64,000 nt of DNA from Desulfovibrio sp. UCD-KL4C (GTDB lineage: Bacteria > Desulfobacterota > Desulfovibrionia > Desulfovibrionales > Desulfovibrionaceae): contig NZ_VCNC01000004.1 in assembly GCF_006210265.1 (NCBI RefSeq), positions 372,001 through 436,000 of the forward strand, read 5' to 3'. The notes below the pieces were generated by a model. It made no database searches. It was given only the letters and a program-made list of their open reading frames with translations, and was not told the DNA's origin. A program made the position numbers and the translations under genes. Positions 3,186 through 57,853 of the stretch are shown piece after piece; within the stretch, counting starts at the first letter, position 1, and the number at the start of each line of letters is the position of its first letter.

Positions 3186-4094
3186 ATGGAAACAAGACAA
3201 CTTCGATATTTTGTAACTGTGGCAGAGGAACTTCATTTCGGAAACGCGGCCAAGCGGCTTAACCTTTCTCAGCCGCCGCTTAGTCAGCAGATTATGAAGT
3301 TTGAAGATGAGCTTGGCGTGAAGCTTTTTGAACGGAATAAGCGTTCTGTAAAATTGACAGCCGCAGGTAAGTCTCTTTTGCAGGATGCTTATGCTATTTT
3401 AAAATCTATTGCTAAGGCAAAGCAGAATCTTCAGGAAGTCGCGTTAGGTAAGAAAGGTCAGCTACGTTTAGGGTATATTGGGCCTGCAATGGATGGAGCG
3501 CTTGCTGATATTATTCGTGAGTACAAGGCAAAGTATCCTGACGTGACTTTTATTTTGGATGAGATGTCGACAAACCTTCAGCTTAAAGAAGCTGCACAGG
3601 GTCGAATTGATGTAGGTGTGGTCAGACTTTTCAAGCATGATTTAGGTGATCTTAAAGGGAAGGTTTTTCATAAAGAACGGTATGCTGTTGCTGTTCCTTC
3701 CGCTCATAAATTTTCTAGTAAATCTGAGATAGATGTTGCGGAACTGGCTGGTGAACCTTTGATTTTCCAACCGCGGGAAAGTCAGCCTCGTCTTTATGAT
3801 GAATGGTTTAGGGTTTTTGCAGAAGCCGGATTCAGCCCTAGAGTGGTTCAGGAGTCTGTAACAAAATCAGCTTCCTTAGCGCTGGCTGCCGCAGGAATAG
3901 GGCTTGCCATTGTTCCGGAAAGTTTAGCAAAACGCAGACTTGCCGGAGTGCAGTTTAAGCCTCTTGCCGGAAATATTCCATCGCTTGAAATGCATATTAT
4001 TTATAATTCGAACCAAGTTTTTCCAGCATTGGAAAATTTTTTAAAAATTGTTAGTGAAATTTCTAGGTGTGATTTTTGGGATAATGTGCTGTAG
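3186..4094 (+). CDS. LysR-family transcriptional regulator
   Basis: 302 residues, standard LysR length. Residues 1-60 carry the winged helix-turn-helix (LRYFVTVAEELHFGNAAKRL, then SQPPLSQQI and ELGVKLFER); the remaining two thirds form the periplasmic-binding-like effector domain. The phrase AEELHFGNAAKRLNLSQPPLSQQI is typical of the BenM/CatM/AlsR-like branch. It is divergent from the aldo/keto reductase gene, and the shared 112-base gap presumably holds the operator. The co-inducer is not predictable. Ends with a short nondescript stretch before the next binding-protein gene. Confidence 0.9.
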   Translation: METRQLRYFVTVAEELHFGNAAKRLNLSQPPLSQQIMKFEDELGVKLFERNKRSVKLTAAGKSLLQDAYAILKSIAKAKQNLQEVALGKKGQLRLGYIGPAMDGALADIIREYKAKYPDVTFILDEMSTNLQLKEAAQGRIDVGVVRLFKHDLGDLKGKVFHKERYAVAVPSAHKFSSKSEIDVAELAGEPLIFQPRESQPRLYDEWFRVFAEAGFSPRVVQESVTKSASLALAAAGIGLAIVPESLAKRRLAGVQFKPLAGNIPSLEMHIIYNSNQVFPALENFLKIVSEISRCDFWDNVL

Positions 4095-44407: not shown

Positions 44408-44588
44408 ATTTCCCTGGGGAGTTCGTGATTGCCCTATAGATTCTGAACCAATATATTGAAAAAGGGAGCAAGTATCATTGGAGTGGTGAGCATGCCCGGT
44501 TTACCGGGAAGCCTAAAACTTCAAGTACAGCGCCCACCTGTTAGACTAGGTTCTAACCTCTACGGCAACACGGCATCTCCGGGGTCCC
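44408..44588 (+). ncRNA. ssrS: 6S RNA
   Basis: About 181 bases. The ends ATTTCCCTGGGGAGTTCG and CGGCATCTCCGGGGTCCC pair to form the closing stem. The most conserved internal pieces of proteobacterial 6S RNA are present: GGTGAGCATGCCCGG, CCGGGAAGCCTAAAACTTC and ACGGCAACACGGCATCTCC. 6S RNA mimics an open promoter and sequesters sigma-70 RNA polymerase in stationary phase. The location directly after zapA is the conserved one. A 70-residue open frame inside it (44456) is spurious. Confidence 0.93.
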
Positions 44589-44605
44589 TAACAGGATTTC
44601 CAGAA

Positions 44606-51516: not shown

Positions 51517-52836
51517 TCAGAAACCGTAACGCAGGTATTCTTTTTCGCTGCGGTTAATCATCTGTATATAGCGATATTTGCTTTTGACCTGAGCTTCTTC
51601 CATAATAGAATAGCCAAGATTCCGGCACCTATCACAAGCTCCAATAGGAATCTCAATCCCGAAGCCAATGGGACCGTTTTCTTTTTGTGTTTCAACTTTA
51701 AGCAGTCCGCGGCAATGGTCACATAAAAATAAAGATTCCGTTTGTGACTCAGTAAAGCCTTCGGTGTCATAGAAAATATTACGGTGACGTACTGACCAGT
51801 CACCTTTTATTATTCCTTCGCTGCTTTGAGTCGGAGGGTTAAAATATATCTCAGGGAGAGTATCGCAAAGCATTTGAATATAGTTCAGAACATCGGCTGA
51901 TTCTTTGAGTGATTCAGGGTTCCATGCTGGTTCGCGCACATGGGAGTAATCAACTCCTGCCATAGCAAGGCTGATACCCAGATTTACATACGGTAATGCC
52001 CCTTGAATGGCGTAACCGCCTTCAAGTACAGCAATGTCCGGTTTTAGCATAGTGTTGAGCGCGGCGTACCCCTGTGCTGAAAAATTCATATTGGTAATAG
52101 GGTCAGTGAAATGATTATCCTGCCCTGCTGAGTTTATAATCAGGTCCGGCTTGAAGTCCTCCAGTAAGGGCATGACTATCTGCTCCATGACCATCATGAA
52201 TCCCGCGTCTGAAGTCCCGGGAGGCAGTGGAATATTGATGGTACGGCCCAGTGCTTTCGGTCCACCAGCATCTTTTGGAAAACCTGTTCCAGGATAAAGT
52301 GTTCGCCCATCCTGATGCATGGAAATGAAAAGAGTATTGGGATCGTGCCAGTATACATCCTGAGTGCCGTCACCGTGATGGCAATCTGTATCCACTATGG
52401 CTATGCGTTTTTGTCCGTATTTTTCACGGATATGTTCGCACATAATAGCTTCGACGTTGATTGTGCAGAACCCGCGGGAACCTTGGACTGTCTTCATTGC
52501 ATGATGCCCCGGAGGGCGCACCATGGCAAAGGCGCGGTCTCTTTTGCCCTGCATTATCAGTTCTGCTGCTTTAATGGCTCCGCCTGCTGAAATATAATGA
52601 GAACGTGTCGCGACTGCTTCCGTCTCCGGAAAGCAGAAGTGGACTCTTTCGATATCTTCTGTCTTTGCCACTTCTGGTTTGTATTCGCGTATTCCTTCAA
52701 TATCAAAAAGACCTTCTTCACGCAGTTGGTCCTGAGTGTATAAAAGACGTTCTTCTCTTTCCGGGTGCGTCGGCGAAATCGCCCAGTCAAATGCAGGGAA
52801 AAATATAATTCCCAGACTGTTTTTAGCTTTGAGCAT
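51517..52836 (-). CDS. Histone deacetylase-family amidohydrolase with C-terminal zinc-ribbon signature
   Basis: 439 residues. Residues 1-300 are an HDAC-fold domain with all key residues: His111-His112 (RPPGHHA), zinc ligands Asp151 and His153 (DTDCHHGDG) and Asp240 (SAGQD), and Tyr275 (LEGGYAI). Bacterial members deacetylate small amines, acetoin-related or other acyl-amide substrates. The last 80 residues are an addition with Cys372-x2-Cys375 and Cys401-x2-Cys404, resembling a zinc ribbon. Encoded 12 bases after the hydantoinase/oxoprolinase-family gene, so probably a shared pathway. Substrate unknown. Confidence 0.9.
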   Translation of the reverse strand: MLKAKNSLGIIFFPAFDWAISPTHPEREERLLYTQDQLREEGLFDIEGIREYKPEVAKTEDIERVHFCFPETEAVATRSHYISAGGAIKAAELIMQGKRDRAFAMVRPPGHHAMKTVQGSRGFCTINVEAIMCEHIREKYGQKRIAIVDTDCHHGDGTQDVYWHDPNTLFISMHQDGRTLYPGTGFPKDAGGPKALGRTINIPLPPGTSDAGFMMVMEQIVMPLLEDFKPDLIINSAGQDNHFTDPITNMNFSAQGYAALNTMLKPDIAVLEGGYAIQGALPYVNLGISLAMAGVDYSHVREPAWNPESLKESADVLNYIQMLCDTLPEIYFNPPTQSSEGIIKGDWSVRHRNIFYDTEGFTESQTESLFLCDHCRGLLKVETQKENGPIGFGIEIPIGACDRCRNLGYSIMEEAQVKSKYRYIQMINRSEKEYLRYGF

Positions 52837-52848
52837 AAAAACTCCGTT

Positions 52849-54513
52849 TTATGAATATGTCCGGATTACGCCGGGTTTAATCTGGCATTTAACTCTGATG
52901 TTTCTGCCCACTGTCGTATAGCCGTCCACCATGTTAAAAGATGAAGACGATGTTATGTGCGCGTTACCTCCGTCTGAAGCAACACTCATGTCACCAAGGT
53001 GAGCCAGCAGATGGTTCATAGCGTCTCGTTCTGCGTCCGCAAGCCTGTAATTGCGGGGAACGTTTTCTCTGTAACCGAGGGATGGGATGAACATAACACC
53101 GCGTTCTGTATCGGCAAAAAGTTCTATCTCAGTTGTTGTTCTGGTTAAAGCCGCGCCGATTGCATTGGCTACATCATAGTTTTCAGGCACTTCCGTTGCA
53201 AGTTTGAATTTGCGGAAGATATCCATTTTCAAGGCCTTAGCTGGCCCGCCCATCATATAAATTTTACGTGGAATTATACGTCTGTTTTCGAGTAATTCAT
53301 GGATGGTATAAACCGGTTGCTGATTAATTTCTTCAACAAGTTCGCGTGTTGCATCATGAATTTTATCAATAGCATTTTCGATAGCTTTGCCTGCCAGCTC
53401 GTCTGGTTCCATTTTATTTTGAGCGGCAAAAGCAGCAAATTTAGTTTTGGATTTTTCAATATTGCCGCAGTTACAGGAGTCTTTCCAAATAAGAGCATCC
53501 GTGAGAGTCGGTGTTTTCCCGCCGAAAGCAATTGAAGGGCCGAGTCGTGTAGGACCGACTTTAACGGTTCCTTCTAGAATGGAAATAGCTGAGTCTCCTC
53601 CGACACCAATGGAGTGGACTTTCAGCGCACGTACAAGTGTCGGATGAGAGCCTATGTTGATTCCTTCCTGTTCAATCAGAGGGGTTCCGTCGACAAATAT
53701 GGCAATGTCAGTAGTCGTCCCGCCGATATCGTAAATGATGGAGTCATGAGTTATTTTGCAGAGAGCAATAATGCCCATAACACTTGCAGCCGGACCTGAA
53801 AAAATAGATTGAACCGGAACTTTTCTTGATAAAGGCAGCGGCATGGTTCCGCCGTCTGCTTTAAGGATATTAACCTTTATATGGCTCAGTCCCATTTCAT
53901 CAAGAGTGCTGGAAATAGCATCTGCAAAGTTATTGAAAATACGCCAGACAGCGCAATTGTAGAAAGCCGTAGCAATACGTCTCGGGAAATTTAAACGCCC
54001 AGTGATTTGGTGTCCGAGGGTGATAAAATCCGCATTGTCGCCAATGGCCAGCTCTATTTCTTTTTCGTGAGAGGGATTACGTGGAGAAAATTTTGTGACT
54101 GCTGCGTAAACTTTAACGCCTGATTTACGGCAGGAAGAAATAGCTTCTTCCAGAGCAAGATTATCTAGTTGTCTTGTTTCCGATCCGCGGTGGTCTAAGG
54201 AGCCGGGGAGAACATGAAAGTCCTTGCAGAGCATAAAGGAGTGCGGATCTAATCCAGGGCCTGCGGAAATAATCATTCCGACGTCCTCAAATTTTCCTTC
54301 AACAATGGAATTTGTTGAGAGCGTGGTACTAAGGTTGAGCTGTTTTATGCGCGTGGGGTCTGTCTGGCTTACAATTGTTCCAAGCGCTCTTTTAATGGAT
54401 GAGAGAAGGTCCTCATGGTTAGTTGCAACTTTAACCTGAGCTTCTATCCGGTCCGGCCCAATAGCGACCGCATCAGTGTGTGTGCCGCCTACGTCTATTC
54501 CAAGAAGGAGCAT
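52849..54513 (-). CDS. Hydantoinase/oxoprolinase-family protein (HyuA-like)
   Basis: 554 residues. Opening LLGIDVGGTHTDAVAIG and internal IIYDIGGTTTDIAIFVDG are the two ATP-phosphate loops of the hydantoinase A/oxoprolinase fold, with MMGGPAKALK near the C-terminus. The family couples ATP hydrolysis to opening cyclic amides or to acetone/acetophenone carboxylation, normally with a HyuB partner. No hyuB is visible here; instead a histone-deacetylase-like gene follows. It is the first gene of the leftward pair, 212 bases after the activator gene on the same strand. No sigma-54 promoter could be found before it. Confidence 0.88.
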   Translation of the reverse strand: MLLLGIDVGGTHTDAVAIGPDRIEAQVKVATNHEDLLSSIKRALGTIVSQTDPTRIKQLNLSTTLSTNSIVEGKFEDVGMIISAGPGLDPHSFMLCKDFHVLPGSLDHRGSETRQLDNLALEEAISSCRKSGVKVYAAVTKFSPRNPSHEKEIELAIGDNADFITLGHQITGRLNFPRRIATAFYNCAVWRIFNNFADAISSTLDEMGLSHIKVNILKADGGTMPLPLSRKVPVQSIFSGPAASVMGIIALCKITHDSIIYDIGGTTTDIAIFVDGTPLIEQEGINIGSHPTLVRALKVHSIGVGGDSAISILEGTVKVGPTRLGPSIAFGGKTPTLTDALIWKDSCNCGNIEKSKTKFAAFAAQNKMEPDELAGKAIENAIDKIHDATRELVEEINQQPVYTIHELLENRRIIPRKIYMMGGPAKALKMDIFRKFKLATEVPENYDVANAIGAALTRTTTEIELFADTERGVMFIPSLGYRENVPRNYRLADAERDAMNHLLAHLGDMSVASDGGNAHITSSSSFNMVDGYTTVGRNIRVKCQIKPGVIRTYS

Positions 54514-54725: not shown

Positions 54726-56273
54726 TTAATCGACTCTTTTAGTAATGCCGATCTTTTTCATACGTGAATCAAACGTGGAACGATTTATTCCTGCTGCTCG
54801 AGCTGCCTGACTTACGTTCCATTTATGTTTTTTTAAAAGCATCATGACATAATGAGACTCCAGCTCTGACCACGTCATTGACGCAAGATTAAGTGTAGAG
54901 TTTGCTTCGTCAGAAGAACTCTGTAATGAGTCTGCCTCCTGCCCTGTGAAGCTTGTCTCGGTTTTTGTTACCGGATTTGCAATGTGTGCAGGTAGCTCTG
55001 ATAACTGGATAGTATCCCCAGCAACCATGGCTTGAAATTGTTTAATAGTATTTTCCAGTTCTCGAATGTTTCCGGGCCATTTATGTGTCTTCATCGCAGA
55101 CATGGCTTCTGGAGTTAGTTGTTTAGGCAGCATGTGGTTGCTTGATGCTTCTCTAGTTAAGAAATATTCGGTCAGCAGGGGGATGTCTTCTTTTCTTTCG
55201 TGCAGGCTGGGCAGCTTAAGCGGCAAAACATTTAATCTGTAATAGAGATCTTCTCTGAATCTACCGGAGCGAACTTCTTCTTCTAATTTACGATTGGTTG
55301 CTGAGATTATACGGATATTTATTTTACGTGTGTTAGTTCCGCCAAGTGGCTTAATTTCATTTTCTTGCAGCACTCTAAGAAGTTTTGCCTGAAGGTTGAT
55401 ATCCATATCGCCTATTTCATCGAGAAAAACAGTACCTCCGTCAGCGGCTTCAAATAACCCTAATTTATTTGCAGATGCCCCAGTAAATGCTCCTTTTACA
55501 TATCCGAATAATTCACTCTCAAGAAGATTTTCCGGTATTGCACTACAGTTTTGGGTTAAAAAAGGCTTAGTCGCACGGTCGCTTTGAACATGGATTTCTT
55601 CAGCGAACAGCTCTTTACCGGTTCCTGATTCTCCGGAAATAAGAACAGGGTAATTTGTTGCAGCATAATTTTTAACAAGTTTAAGTGCTTTGCTGACAGA
55701 CGCACTCTTACCGACAATTGAGTTTTTACCGCGAAGGCTGCTTAAAGTCTGGCTTAGCTGTGTGTATTTAGTTTGCTGTTTTTGAAATTCTAAAGAGTTG
55801 CCTAAGGCTATAGCGCCAATGTCTACCATTTCCTGTAACATGTTGAGGTATTCGGGATTGAGGTTCAAGTGAGCCCCATCAGAGCTTGTATCAATAACCT
55901 GAACTGCGCCGTAAACCTCTTTCCCTTTAAGAAGGAGCGGAAAGCATAGAATATGCCTACTCTTTATTTCAAAATCCTGTTCAATTTTACTGAAATGTCT
56001 GTCATCTGCTCCAGCTTTTGCAATAGTCATTTCCCCATTCTGTATGACCCATCCCACAATACTTTTTTCATTTGGAGAAAGTTTAATACCTTTTATTGCT
56101 TCACTATGATGCCCTGATGATTCAACGCATTCATACATATTGTTGCGCTCAATCCAAAGAGACCCTCTTTCTACGTTTTGCAACTTTAAAAGTAGGTTTA
56201 GCATCGTTTTCTGTAGTTTTTTAGGGTCTAATTCTCGCGATAGTGCTTTATAATCGTCAATTGAGATAGTCAT
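54726..56273 (-). CDS. GAF-domain sigma-54-dependent transcriptional activator
   Basis: 515 residues: GAF sensor (about 20-165), AAA+ activator domain (about 190-420; Walker [16 protein letters not shown], sigma-54 contact loop GAFTGA, Walker [13 protein letters not shown]) and a C-terminal Fis-type helix-turn-helix ([24 protein letters not shown]). All elements needed to drive sigma-54 polymerase are intact. It is divergent from a clear sigma-54 promoter at 56442-56459, and runs in the same direction as the HyuA-HDAC pair. The GAF ligand is unknown. Confidence 0.94.
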
Positions 56274-56441
56274 ATATTTATTTGTTTTGTTGGGTTTAGT
56301 CGTGTTATTTTGTGTTTTTTATGATATATAGTAATATTTATGAATTGACAACGAGTGGTAGAAGGGTGTTGAAATTCGTTTTTTAACTCCTGAATGGCTA
56401 CCTGTCGGGGCTAACGGTTTTTTTTGCCAATAAAATTGTTT

Positions 56442-56459
56442 TTGGCACGGATGGTGCTT
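56442..56459 (+). promoter_or_regulatory. Sigma-54 promoter
   Basis: TTGGCAC-GGATG-GTGCTT: invariant GG at 56444-56445 and GC at 56456-56457 separated by exactly ten bases, matching TGGCAC-N5-TTGC closely. Transcription should begin near 56469, divergent from the sigma-54 activator gene. Confidence 0.85.
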
Positions 56460-56489
56460 TATAGAGATCAGCTTGTTAGTCAAGTATGG

Positions 56490-56547
56490 ACCGGGGGACC
56501 CACTCCACCTCCCCGACCCCTTCGGGTTCTCCGGTTCACAACTTTTT
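56490..56547 (+). ncRNA. C-rich stem-loop in the sigma-54 transcript (candidate small RNA or leader)
   Basis: Twelve base pairs, ACCGGGGGACCC (56490-56501) with GGGTTCTCCGGT (56524-56535), two of them G-U. The 22-base loop contains CTCCACCTCCCCGACCCC, which includes CACCTCC, complementary to Shine-Dalgarno sequences. A T-run of six at 56543-56548 follows after a seven-base gap, so it may be a weak terminator. The role is inferred. Confidence 0.5.
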
Positions 56548-56595
56548 TAAAACATATCGGTTTAATATCTATACATATGATGGAGTGATCTTTTC

Positions 56596-56829
56596 ATGAG
56601 TAATATTGAAAGTCTGCTTTCAGTGCACAGACGAGATATGGAAATGTTGCGCGGCGAATCTCGTCAGGCCAGATCTATTAGATCAAAAGAATACCGTGAA
56701 ATGAATAAAGAGTTTAATGCCCTTCGTTCAAAGCTATCAGCTGAACTGCCGCATTATGTTAAAGTATCTTCTTTGCTGCGCGGACCATTTGCTTTTATGC
56801 TTACTCTTCTTACTATACTCAGCTTCTAA
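56596..56829 (+). CDS. Small orphan protein downstream of sigma-54 promoter
   Basis: 77 residues; no family recognised. The first 50 residues are highly charged and helical (HRRDMEMLRGESRQARSIRS, then KEYREMNKEFNALRSKL), ending in a single hydrophobic stretch (PFAFMLTLLTILSF) that could be a C-terminal membrane tail. No signal peptide or cysteine. TGGAG lies 11-12 bases before the ATG. It is the first coding gene after the sigma-54 promoter at 56442 and appears to stand alone, so it may be the main product of that transcript. Confidence 0.65.
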   Translation: MSNIESLLSVHRRDMEMLRGESRQARSIRSKEYREMNKEFNALRSKLSAELPHYVKVSSLLRGPFAFMLTLLTILSF

Positions 56830-56971
56830 ATAAAAAGAAACGTTTTCTGGTGAATAAGGTTTTAGCGTTTTTTAGTGGCTTTGTGTTTAAAGAACGAGCC
56901 GGAATTTTTTGAAGTTCATCCGGCTCGCATTAGTTCTTTAATCCTTTTTTCTTCTTCCTCTTTCGTTCTGG

Positions 56972-57853
56972 CTACCGTGAGTTTCCAAGAAAAGCTTTAG
57001 CCGTTTCTCTTAAGTTCTCATCCCAATTAGCAGCTAGCGGGTCTGCGACCAGAATTTTTGCTCCTATTGAAGAGGCAATTGCCTGTGCGCTTTTTTTAGA
57101 GAACTGCGGCTGAATGAATATGGCGGAAACTGAATTCTTGCGTGCAAAGTCGATTATCTGAGCCATCTCTTTAGGGCTGGGTTCTTTTCCTTCTAATTCA
57201 ATCGGAATCTGCTTTAGTCCGTAAACTCTGGCGAAATATCCCCATGACGGGTGGTACACCATAAAGCTCTGCGGTTTAGACGAGTGTTTGAATACGTTAA
57301 TCAGTTCATGGTCCAGCTCATCAATTTCCCCAGCAAATTCATAATAGTTTTTTCTGTAAATTTCTTCGTGTTGAGGGTCTGCCTCTATCAGTGAGTCTCT
57401 AATCTGAAGGGACATGATTCTTACAAGGGGCGGAGCAAGCCAGATGTGCGGATCGGCGATATAGTTTTCACTGTGTCCGTGATGTTCTTCTCCATTATGT
57501 ATATGTTCCTGCATTGGCTGTCTTACTACAGAGTCATTTAGATGAACGATTTCTAAATTTGTGTTTGCTGATTTAAATCTCGGTAGCCATGCCTGTTCAA
57601 ACGGAACCCCTATGGCAAAGTAAATAGCAGAATGGCTCAGCTGGGTCATTTGCTTCGGTTGCGGTTCGTACACCGCCGGGCTGCTGCCGGGTCTGACCAT
57701 TACATTCACTTTTACTAAGTCTCCTCCTATTTTTTTAACAAAGAATTCCTGCGGAACAATAGAAACGGTAACCTGTAAGGGGGCTGCGTTCGCAATTGTT
57801 GAAATAAACAGAAATAGTATGGTAAGTATGAACTTTGATTTGTAGGCGGACAT
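56972..57853 (-). CDS. TroA/ZnuA-family metal-binding periplasmic protein, variant site
   Basis: About 293 residues with a signal peptide (FILTILFLFISTIANA). Cluster A-I binding fold. Expected metal ligands His136 (DPHIWLAP), His201 (YHPSWGYF) and Asp271 (VADPLAAN) are present, but the first ligand, normally His in a PHxYEP motif, is Ala60 (SSPAVYEPQP). A His-rich loop (EHIHNGEEHHGH, 117-128) fits zinc handling. No znuB or znuC is adjacent. The ATG at 57853 with GGAGAACC before it is preferred; longer frames (57919) precede the signal. A palindrome AATACGCGTATT lies at 57900-57911. Confidence 0.85.
   Translation of the reverse strand: MSAYKSKFILTILFLFISTIANAAPLQVTVSIVPQEFFVKKIGGDLVKVNVMVRPGSSPAVYEPQPKQMTQLSHSAIYFAIGVPFEQAWLPRFKSANTNLEIVHLNDSVVRQPMQEHIHNGEEHHGHSENYIADPHIWLAPPLVRIMSLQIRDSLIEADPQHEEIYRKNYYEFAGEIDELDHELINVFKHSSKPQSFMVYHPSWGYFARVYGLKQIPIELEGKEPSPKEMAQIIDFARKNSVSAIFIQPQFSKKSAQAIASSIGAKILVADPLAANWDENLRETAKAFLGNSR

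Follow-up and report, generated by a model that had tools for sequence, protein, structure and literature searches.

A conserved RNA with an invariant C-rich loop, apparently under sigma-54 control, upstream of a small-protein gene in one genus of sulfate-reducing bacteria

What is transcribed from the sigma-54-type promoter that faces away from an activator gene on this Desulfovibrio contig: a regulatory small RNA, or a leader of the 77-residue protein encoded downstream? The original prediction, made from the letters of the window (the whole 64,000-nucleotide stretch of DNA analysed here), had offered both options. By comparison with related genomes, we consider it near certain that a conserved, structured plus-strand RNA is present at this place, and this RNA is apparently under sigma-54 control. 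Across the 17 genomes of the genus, the alignment reveals a folded plus-strand RNA with an invariant loop, a conserved promoter and a constant linkage to both the activator gene and a small reading frame, laid out in the window as follows.

54726..56273, minus strand: divergent sigma-54 activator gene (GAF, AAA+ and Fis-type HTH by Pfam; 515 aa)
56321..56332, no strand: palindrome ATGATATATAGT, up to ACGATATATCGT in relatives, presumed activator binding site (alignment of 17 upstream regions)
56443..56458, plus strand: sigma-54 promoter TGGCAC-N6-TGC(T) (sequence; 17/17 genus genomes; mean identity 0.87 over 56442-56458)
56469..56470, plus strand: predicted transcript start (promoter spacing, 12 bases past the -12 C; conserved block from 56470)
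56471..56485, plus strand: 5'-terminal hairpin GCUUG-UUAGU-CAAGU (5/5 pairs kept in 15/15 distinct alignment rows)
56487..56501, plus strand: main stem, 5' strand (both partners changed at six of the stem's pairs)
56502..56523, plus strand: 22-base C-rich loop ACUCCACCUCCCCGACCCCUUC (21/22 positions invariant in 17 genomes)
56524..56538, plus strand: main stem, 3' strand (covariation and independent consensus fold)
56582..56585, plus strand: ribosome-binding site GGAG of the small gene (sequence; a GGAG-type site also precedes the start in relatives)
56596..56829, plus strand: 77-residue protein, charged in its N-terminal part and hydrophobic in its C-terminal tail (open in 17/17)

A conserved fold behind a conserved promoter

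The pattern TGGCAC-N6-TGC, at 56443-56457 in the window, recurs at the element in every one of the 17 genus genomes, at the distance from the RNA that a sigma-54-dependent transcript would call for, so that the sigma-54 promoter first read from a single sequence is borne out. In one genome (G002) the spacing between promoter and RNA is four bases longer. Conservation in the 17-genome alignment sets in abruptly, at most one or two bases from the predicted sigma-54 transcript start, and this coincidence supports both the promoter and a start at about 56469/56470. A scan of 56270-56980 found no sigma-70-like promoter on either strand. Further upstream, mean identity reaches 0.75 over 56319-56336, against 0.35 between the palindrome and the promoter; the palindrome is presumably the binding site of the activator, which would in turn activate the sigma-54 promoter. 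Neither this palindrome nor the 5' hairpin formed part of the original prediction.

The main stem, 56487-56501 with 56524-56538, comprises 15 bp in the window, three of them G-U, and 16 bp in some relatives. The stem proposed earlier (12 bp, 56490-56501 with 56524-56535, two G-U pairs) thus had its pairs right and was too short, and the 22-base loop carrying CACCTCC and CCTCCCC lies at 56502-56523 as described. When folded on its own, 56469-56560 yields -29.6 kcal/mol, for a z of -2.59; 4 of 200 shuffles do equally well. This is only moderately unusual and, taken alone, is modest evidence. On the 15 distinct rows of the alignment, 96.8% of cells pair, six pairs have changed on both sides and 16 further pair types occur; only one pair of the 5' hairpin varies, from G-U to A-U. 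None of 500 shuffles reached the covariation score of 0.266 and 11 of 500 reached the count of six pairs changed on both sides, figures that overstate the case because the shuffles ignore how the genomes are related and because these same sequences had supplied the structure. The signal is lost when the partner is slid by one to three columns, and an independently computed consensus fold gives the same stems except for the outermost pair. G-U combinations fill 41 cells against a single A-C when the outermost pair is left out, and 41 against 8 when it is included. The tolerated changes therefore keep the plus-strand fold, which indicates that selection acts on the plus-strand RNA.

Conservation is uneven along the locus. 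Mean pairwise identity is 0.87 in the promoter, 0.48 in the spacer between promoter and RNA, 0.97 in the 5' hairpin, 0.85 and 0.77 in the two stem strands, 0.98 in the loop (measured over 56503-56524, one base off the true loop at 56502-56523, which is likewise invariant at 21 of 22 positions), 0.44 in the linker to the small gene and 0.50 in the 77-residue protein. The only variable loop position is the last, U or C; the loop holds one G only, and its mean unpaired probability is 0.95-0.98 in each of the 17 folded leaders. A loop this constant beside so variable a linker and protein argues that the loop letters themselves matter. The original prediction would have been weakened by relatives that lose the stem and loop and keep the 77-residue frame; we find the reverse, an RNA far more conserved than the frame.

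Small gene, neighbourhood and range

The small frame is very probably a real gene, given that it is open in all 17 genomes and that third-codon-position changes are the commonest in each of seven pairs compared over 50 codons, one of which differs at a single base. Neither Pfam nor NCBIfam has a family for its product at E 0.001, and the protein is probably membrane-anchored. The distance from loop to start codon is nearly fixed (83-100 bases). Past the small gene, an inverted repeat CGAGCCGGA...TCCGGCTCG occupies 56895-56927 of the window; it is absent from the output of the terminator scan of 56270-56980 and is possibly a two-way terminator between the small gene and the ZnuA-like gene.

The activator gene lies beside the RNA in 16/16 relatives (64-92% identity), followed in all 16 by a hydantoinase/oxoprolinase-type gene and then a histone-deacetylase-like gene, which stand side by side on the minus strand at 51517-54513 in the window. 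On the other side, the fetched stretches show a ZnuA-like gene for 14 of the 16 relatives and an ammonium transporter gene for 15 of them. At the cut-off used, 110 of 149 family genomes have the hydantoinase-type gene; of 20 stretches fetched from other genera, 16 show it next to the histone-deacetylase-like gene, the activator not being there. None of these 20 stretches holds a relative of the activator beside the hydantoinase-type gene, with the qualification that one stretch ends early at a contig edge and that G256 has an activator relative about 4 kb off, outside its stretch. As far as this sample goes, activator, RNA and small gene thus occur as a unit at this place only in the genus.

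Activators about 49-55% identical to this one are encoded in 30 genomes of nine other genera, and four members of the genus carry a second such activator. Seven of 20 upstream regions of related activators contain a CGA-NN-TATCG-type palindrome and seven, partly the same ones, a divergent sigma-54 promoter before a readable frame; the element RNA is in none of the 20, and the frames encode proteins that, by eye, are unlike the 77-residue protein. In L097, L099, L101, L102, L109, L110 and L111, relatives of the activator each have a divergent sigma-54 promoter too, but the frames behind these promoters are unrelated: one protein has 178 residues and is rich in repeats, one is long and looks secreted, and one, of about 120 residues, is shared. 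Since palindrome and divergent promoter occur at related activators without the RNA, this arrangement looks older than the RNA, which would be an addition at the level of the genus.

The RNA itself has a sharply bounded range. A DNA search of 58 genomes found the element in 17, exactly the 17 members of the window's genus, with one match per genome and at the same chromosomal place in all. A covariance model (R1) built from these 17, the kind of search that the original prediction had proposed, was run at E 0.001 on 348 genomes from 59 genera of the order, using the stricter filters for large searches; it recovered the same 17 and none of the 331 others. As both searches return the same set, the element is universal in the sampled genus and was not detected outside it. 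A scan of genome contig records, which covered the genus in part (two members against the 17 of the genome set), gave four matches to the 21-base loop core: two Desulfovibrio MAGs, Sphaerisporangium and Sandaracinus. We set aside the last two, both high-GC, as chance, the model fitting the loop part only. The loop core had no match in viral contigs and the element no plasmid match, and a mobile origin was rejected on these grounds.

Homologous RNAs in other genera were likewise sought and rejected. A sigma-54 promoter followed by CACCTCC occurs at 42 places in 34 of the 331 other genomes, against about 52 matches (hand count) of the reversed control over all 348 genomes, so the pattern is not enriched outside the genus. 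No spoon shape appeared among the 15 places that were fetched and folded; the remaining 27 were judged from their letters, unfolded.

This survey also brought up other candidate RNAs. In three other genera (g31, g39 and g53), a stretch in common, GTCCGGCAGAC...CACCTCCA, comes after a sigma-54-type promoter and before a terminator-like hairpin with a T-run. This second candidate has no Rfam match at the gathering threshold, and an RNase D gene lies upstream of it in L177 and L180. Its places are these.

L177 from 3353, L178 from 3358 and L180 from 3251, plus strand: second candidate RNA
L179, reverse strand, at 3735 of the reverse complement: second candidate RNA
L190, reverse strand: less alike

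Seven genomes (L181-L187) have a sigma-54-type promoter, a small hairpin and a long stem before a frame, with CACCTCC in the stem and not the loop: a similar layout with a different RNA. In L188 (plus strand, from 3286) and L189 (plus strand, from 3373), a sigma-54-type promoter and a small frame enclose a conserved leader, and a relative of the activator's domain is encoded 3 kb downstream.

What the loop may do

We propose that the activator next door acts from the upstream palindrome to turn on the sigma-54 promoter, giving a transcript from about 56469/56470 that would open with a small protective hairpin, continue into a long stem displaying the 22-base single-stranded C-rich loop, and run on into the mRNA of the 77-residue, probably membrane-anchored protein. 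A 5' hairpin with one or two leading bases would shield a transcript end. The loop carries CCACCUCCCC, which overlaps the anti-Shine-Dalgarno sequence of 16S rRNA; ACCUCC is common to the loop and the 16S tail, so the loop could cover strong ribosome-binding sites. Conserved, complementary and predicted to be open in 17/17, it is the kind of loop expected of a C-rich, anti-Shine-Dalgarno-type RNA, and pairing with ribosome-binding sites is possible by sequence. The loop, as part of the intact leader or of a 5' fragment processed from it, would then act as a base-pairing surface that masks Shine-Dalgarno or G-rich stretches in other mRNAs. In the portions of the published accounts used here, C-rich loops that pair with mRNAs are described for other bacteria (PMC6234868, PMC8295292, PMC10746234).

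A target search, also proposed with the original prediction, did not lend this idea a long partner. Complements of 11 loop bases outside the element number 43 in the 17 genomes against 41 in the reversed control, with none in the window's own genome, and 20-base complements with up to three mismatches number 15 against 23 in the genus genomes. As neither is commoner than its control, there is no sign of an extended conserved target, and no long conserved mRNA target was found. The 9-base GGGGAGGTG before ATG is found 50 times against 12 in the control, and these matches are probably for the most part ordinary strong ribosome-binding sites that would be expected anyway. Among the 30 of these 50 loci at which the downstream frame was read, two proteins recur. 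One is a 284-residue membrane protein, apparently a PotC-like permease, found in G000, G014, G009 and G008, and the string recurs identically or almost so in G016 and G003; an apparent overlap with the end of the gene upstream may be what has preserved this site. The other is a 79-residue protein in G014, G016, G015 and G013 with no Pfam family (one of them scanned). We treat both genes as candidate targets and no more. A duplex scan of the 14 kb around the element, run without a control, gave moderate matches only, to which we attach no weight. Hfq (PF17209) was not detected in 21/21 Desulfovibrionales genomes (G000-G012 and G034-G041, 13 of them of the genus) by a search that was positive in 5 of 14 known genomes when used as a control; pairing, if real, would thus do without Hfq.

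We judge short-seed anti-Shine-Dalgarno action in trans to be the likeliest use of the loop, with a cis role or a protein partner as the main alternatives, and we give about an even chance to the reading that the element is a leader under sigma-54 control, or an RNA derived from one, with a loop that pairs in trans with Shine-Dalgarno sequences over short stretches. That it is at least a leader follows from promoter, RNA and frame occurring together in 17/17 with no conserved terminator between RNA and frame. The six T at 56543-56548, noted earlier as a T-run after the stem, are present in the window but are not conserved in the alignment, which means that they are not a terminator, and the scan of 56270-56980 found none; the RNA accordingly lacks the terminator of its own that would mark it as a separate transcript. 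An intrinsic terminator or attenuator, in which stem and T-run stop transcription, would fit the stable stem and the T-run of the window, and was rejected on the same two results as the least probable reading of all; termination needs no 22-base invariant loop. The missing terminator, the lack of any excess of complements and the constant link to the small gene weigh on the trans reading too, as the link fits a cis role equally well. In a purely cis-acting leader, the hairpins would set the stability or translation of the 77-residue mRNA and the loop would meet a ligand, the ribosome or a factor. Linkage in all 17 genomes, the nearly fixed spacing from loop to start, the lack of a conserved terminator and the failure to find an extended trans partner all agree with such a leader, yet its loop would be more conserved than the protein it serves, the linker from hairpin to ribosome-binding site is unconserved (0.44), and the small gene's GGAG shows no uniform occlusion, its unpaired probability ranging from 0.01 to 0.95 over the 17 leaders. 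Pairing of the loop with this site was rejected as the cause of loop invariance, for the surroundings of the site vary and the loop does not, which speaks against a purely local partner. We regard the purely cis-acting leader as somewhat unlikely, if a serious contender.

Invariance at 21 of 22 positions seems to exceed what short-seed pairing needs, and together with the single G and the lack of an extended conserved mRNA partner it could point to a protein-binding or titration site, at which a binder of C-rich RNA (Rho, ribosomal protein S1 or another factor) reads the loop letters. Rho loading sites tolerate changes, however, and 22 bases are short for one; we hold this reading to be decidedly unlikely. 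A structured leader followed by a small protein whose tail is hydrophobic also recalls a type I toxin-antitoxin system, with the protein as toxin and the leader held off by an antisense RNA, but the constant chromosomal place in 17/17, the sigma-54-type promoter with no sigma-70-like one on either strand of 56270-56980, and the G-U bias that marks selection on the plus-strand fold make this very improbable. Returning to short-stretch pairing in trans, a bolder form of it is a dual-function transcript launched by the sigma-54 activator, whose 5' spoon would mimic the 16S anti-Shine-Dalgarno tail and silence many mRNAs and whose 3' part would encode a small membrane-anchored protein for the same response. 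We consider this version rather unlikely; if it were true, translation would be regulated globally and without a chaperone by the invariant 22-base loop, throughout a genus with no detectable Hfq.

Relation to known RNAs and regulatory systems

The element is apparently an undescribed regulatory RNA. No Rfam 15 family scores above its gathering threshold in the element region, also when weaker matches are listed, or in the element regions of two relatives; the sole match at or above the gathering threshold within the window is a 6S RNA at 44408-44589 on the plus strand. The COG2827 RNA (RF02938), whose consensus opens with letters resembling the -12 box, was rejected at 19.5 bits in the window against a threshold of 49.1, and is absent in the two relatives tested. 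Titles and abstract openings of the literature on Desulfovibrio small RNAs and sigma-54 regulation (including PMC4641369, PMC3333781 and PMC11124144) do not describe it. The original view that no described family has this context therefore stands at the Rfam threshold, with one caveat. The sigma-54 regulome of D. vulgaris, in the part of the report considered here, includes four ncRNAs, one of them assigned to the divergent one-component activator DVU2359 (PMC4641369). D. vulgaris is of the same family by taxonomy, and in both cases a one-component activator diverges from a sigma-54 promoter, there assigned an ncRNA (PMC4641369, PMC3333781); a relation is possible on this likeness of context.

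The literature searched offers little about post-transcriptional regulation in sulfate-reducing bacteria. An RNA present in one copy, with a fixed loop, a defined promoter and, presumably, its own sigma-54 activator, would offer a clean case of how a C-rich loop works without Hfq, as well as a case of an RNA that also serves as the leader of a small-protein gene. In vibrios, Qrr1 is sigma-54-dependent and adjacent to LuxO, and the Qrr RNAs use Hfq. An activator that switches on a regulatory RNA is what the LuxO-Qrr1 pair has in common with our locus (PMC3843225, as far as the source was available), but LuxO is a response regulator, whereas the activator here has a GAF domain and Hfq was not detected in the genus genomes tested.

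For the loop, the closest likenesses, all drawn from parts of the published descriptions, lie in other groups. RepG of Helicobacter pylori pairs a C/U-rich loop with G-rich mRNA stretches, but that loop belongs to a terminator, of which the element has none that we could find (PMC8295292). The NfeR1/alpha-r14 RNAs of rhizobia have an unpaired anti-Shine-Dalgarno motif more conserved than their stems; they carry CCUCCUCCC in each of three hairpins, whereas the element has one C-rich loop with CCACCUCCCC and so falls outside the alpha-r14/cuckoo RNAs as described (PMC10746234). PmaR of Agrobacterium comes nearest in shape, the one feature compared, and from its description: a spoon, with a long stem and a single-stranded C-rich loop that engages targets, and with a similarly narrow range of one genus and a close relative (PMC6234868). 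Its loop is mainly cytosines and not an anti-Shine-Dalgarno stretch (PMC6234868), and the element differs further in its sigma-54-type promoter and its linked activator and small-protein genes.

In layout, the nearest counterpart, again from a partial description, is CcsR/CcaF1 at the CIN1 locus of Rhodobacter, where regulatory RNA and small-protein gene share one transcript unit (71 aa against 77 aa here; PMC10253847). That locus combines four RNAs with a DUF1127 protein, an RpoHI/RpoHII promoter and a terminator after them (PMC10253847), whereas the element places one RNA in front of a protein that is not DUF1127 (no Pfam match to it for the 77-residue protein or for the one relative scanned) and has a sigma-54-type promoter, so that it does not qualify as a CIN1-type locus. 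On the descriptions available, the element would thus combine a PmaR-like shape with a CcsR-CcaF1-like layout while belonging to neither.
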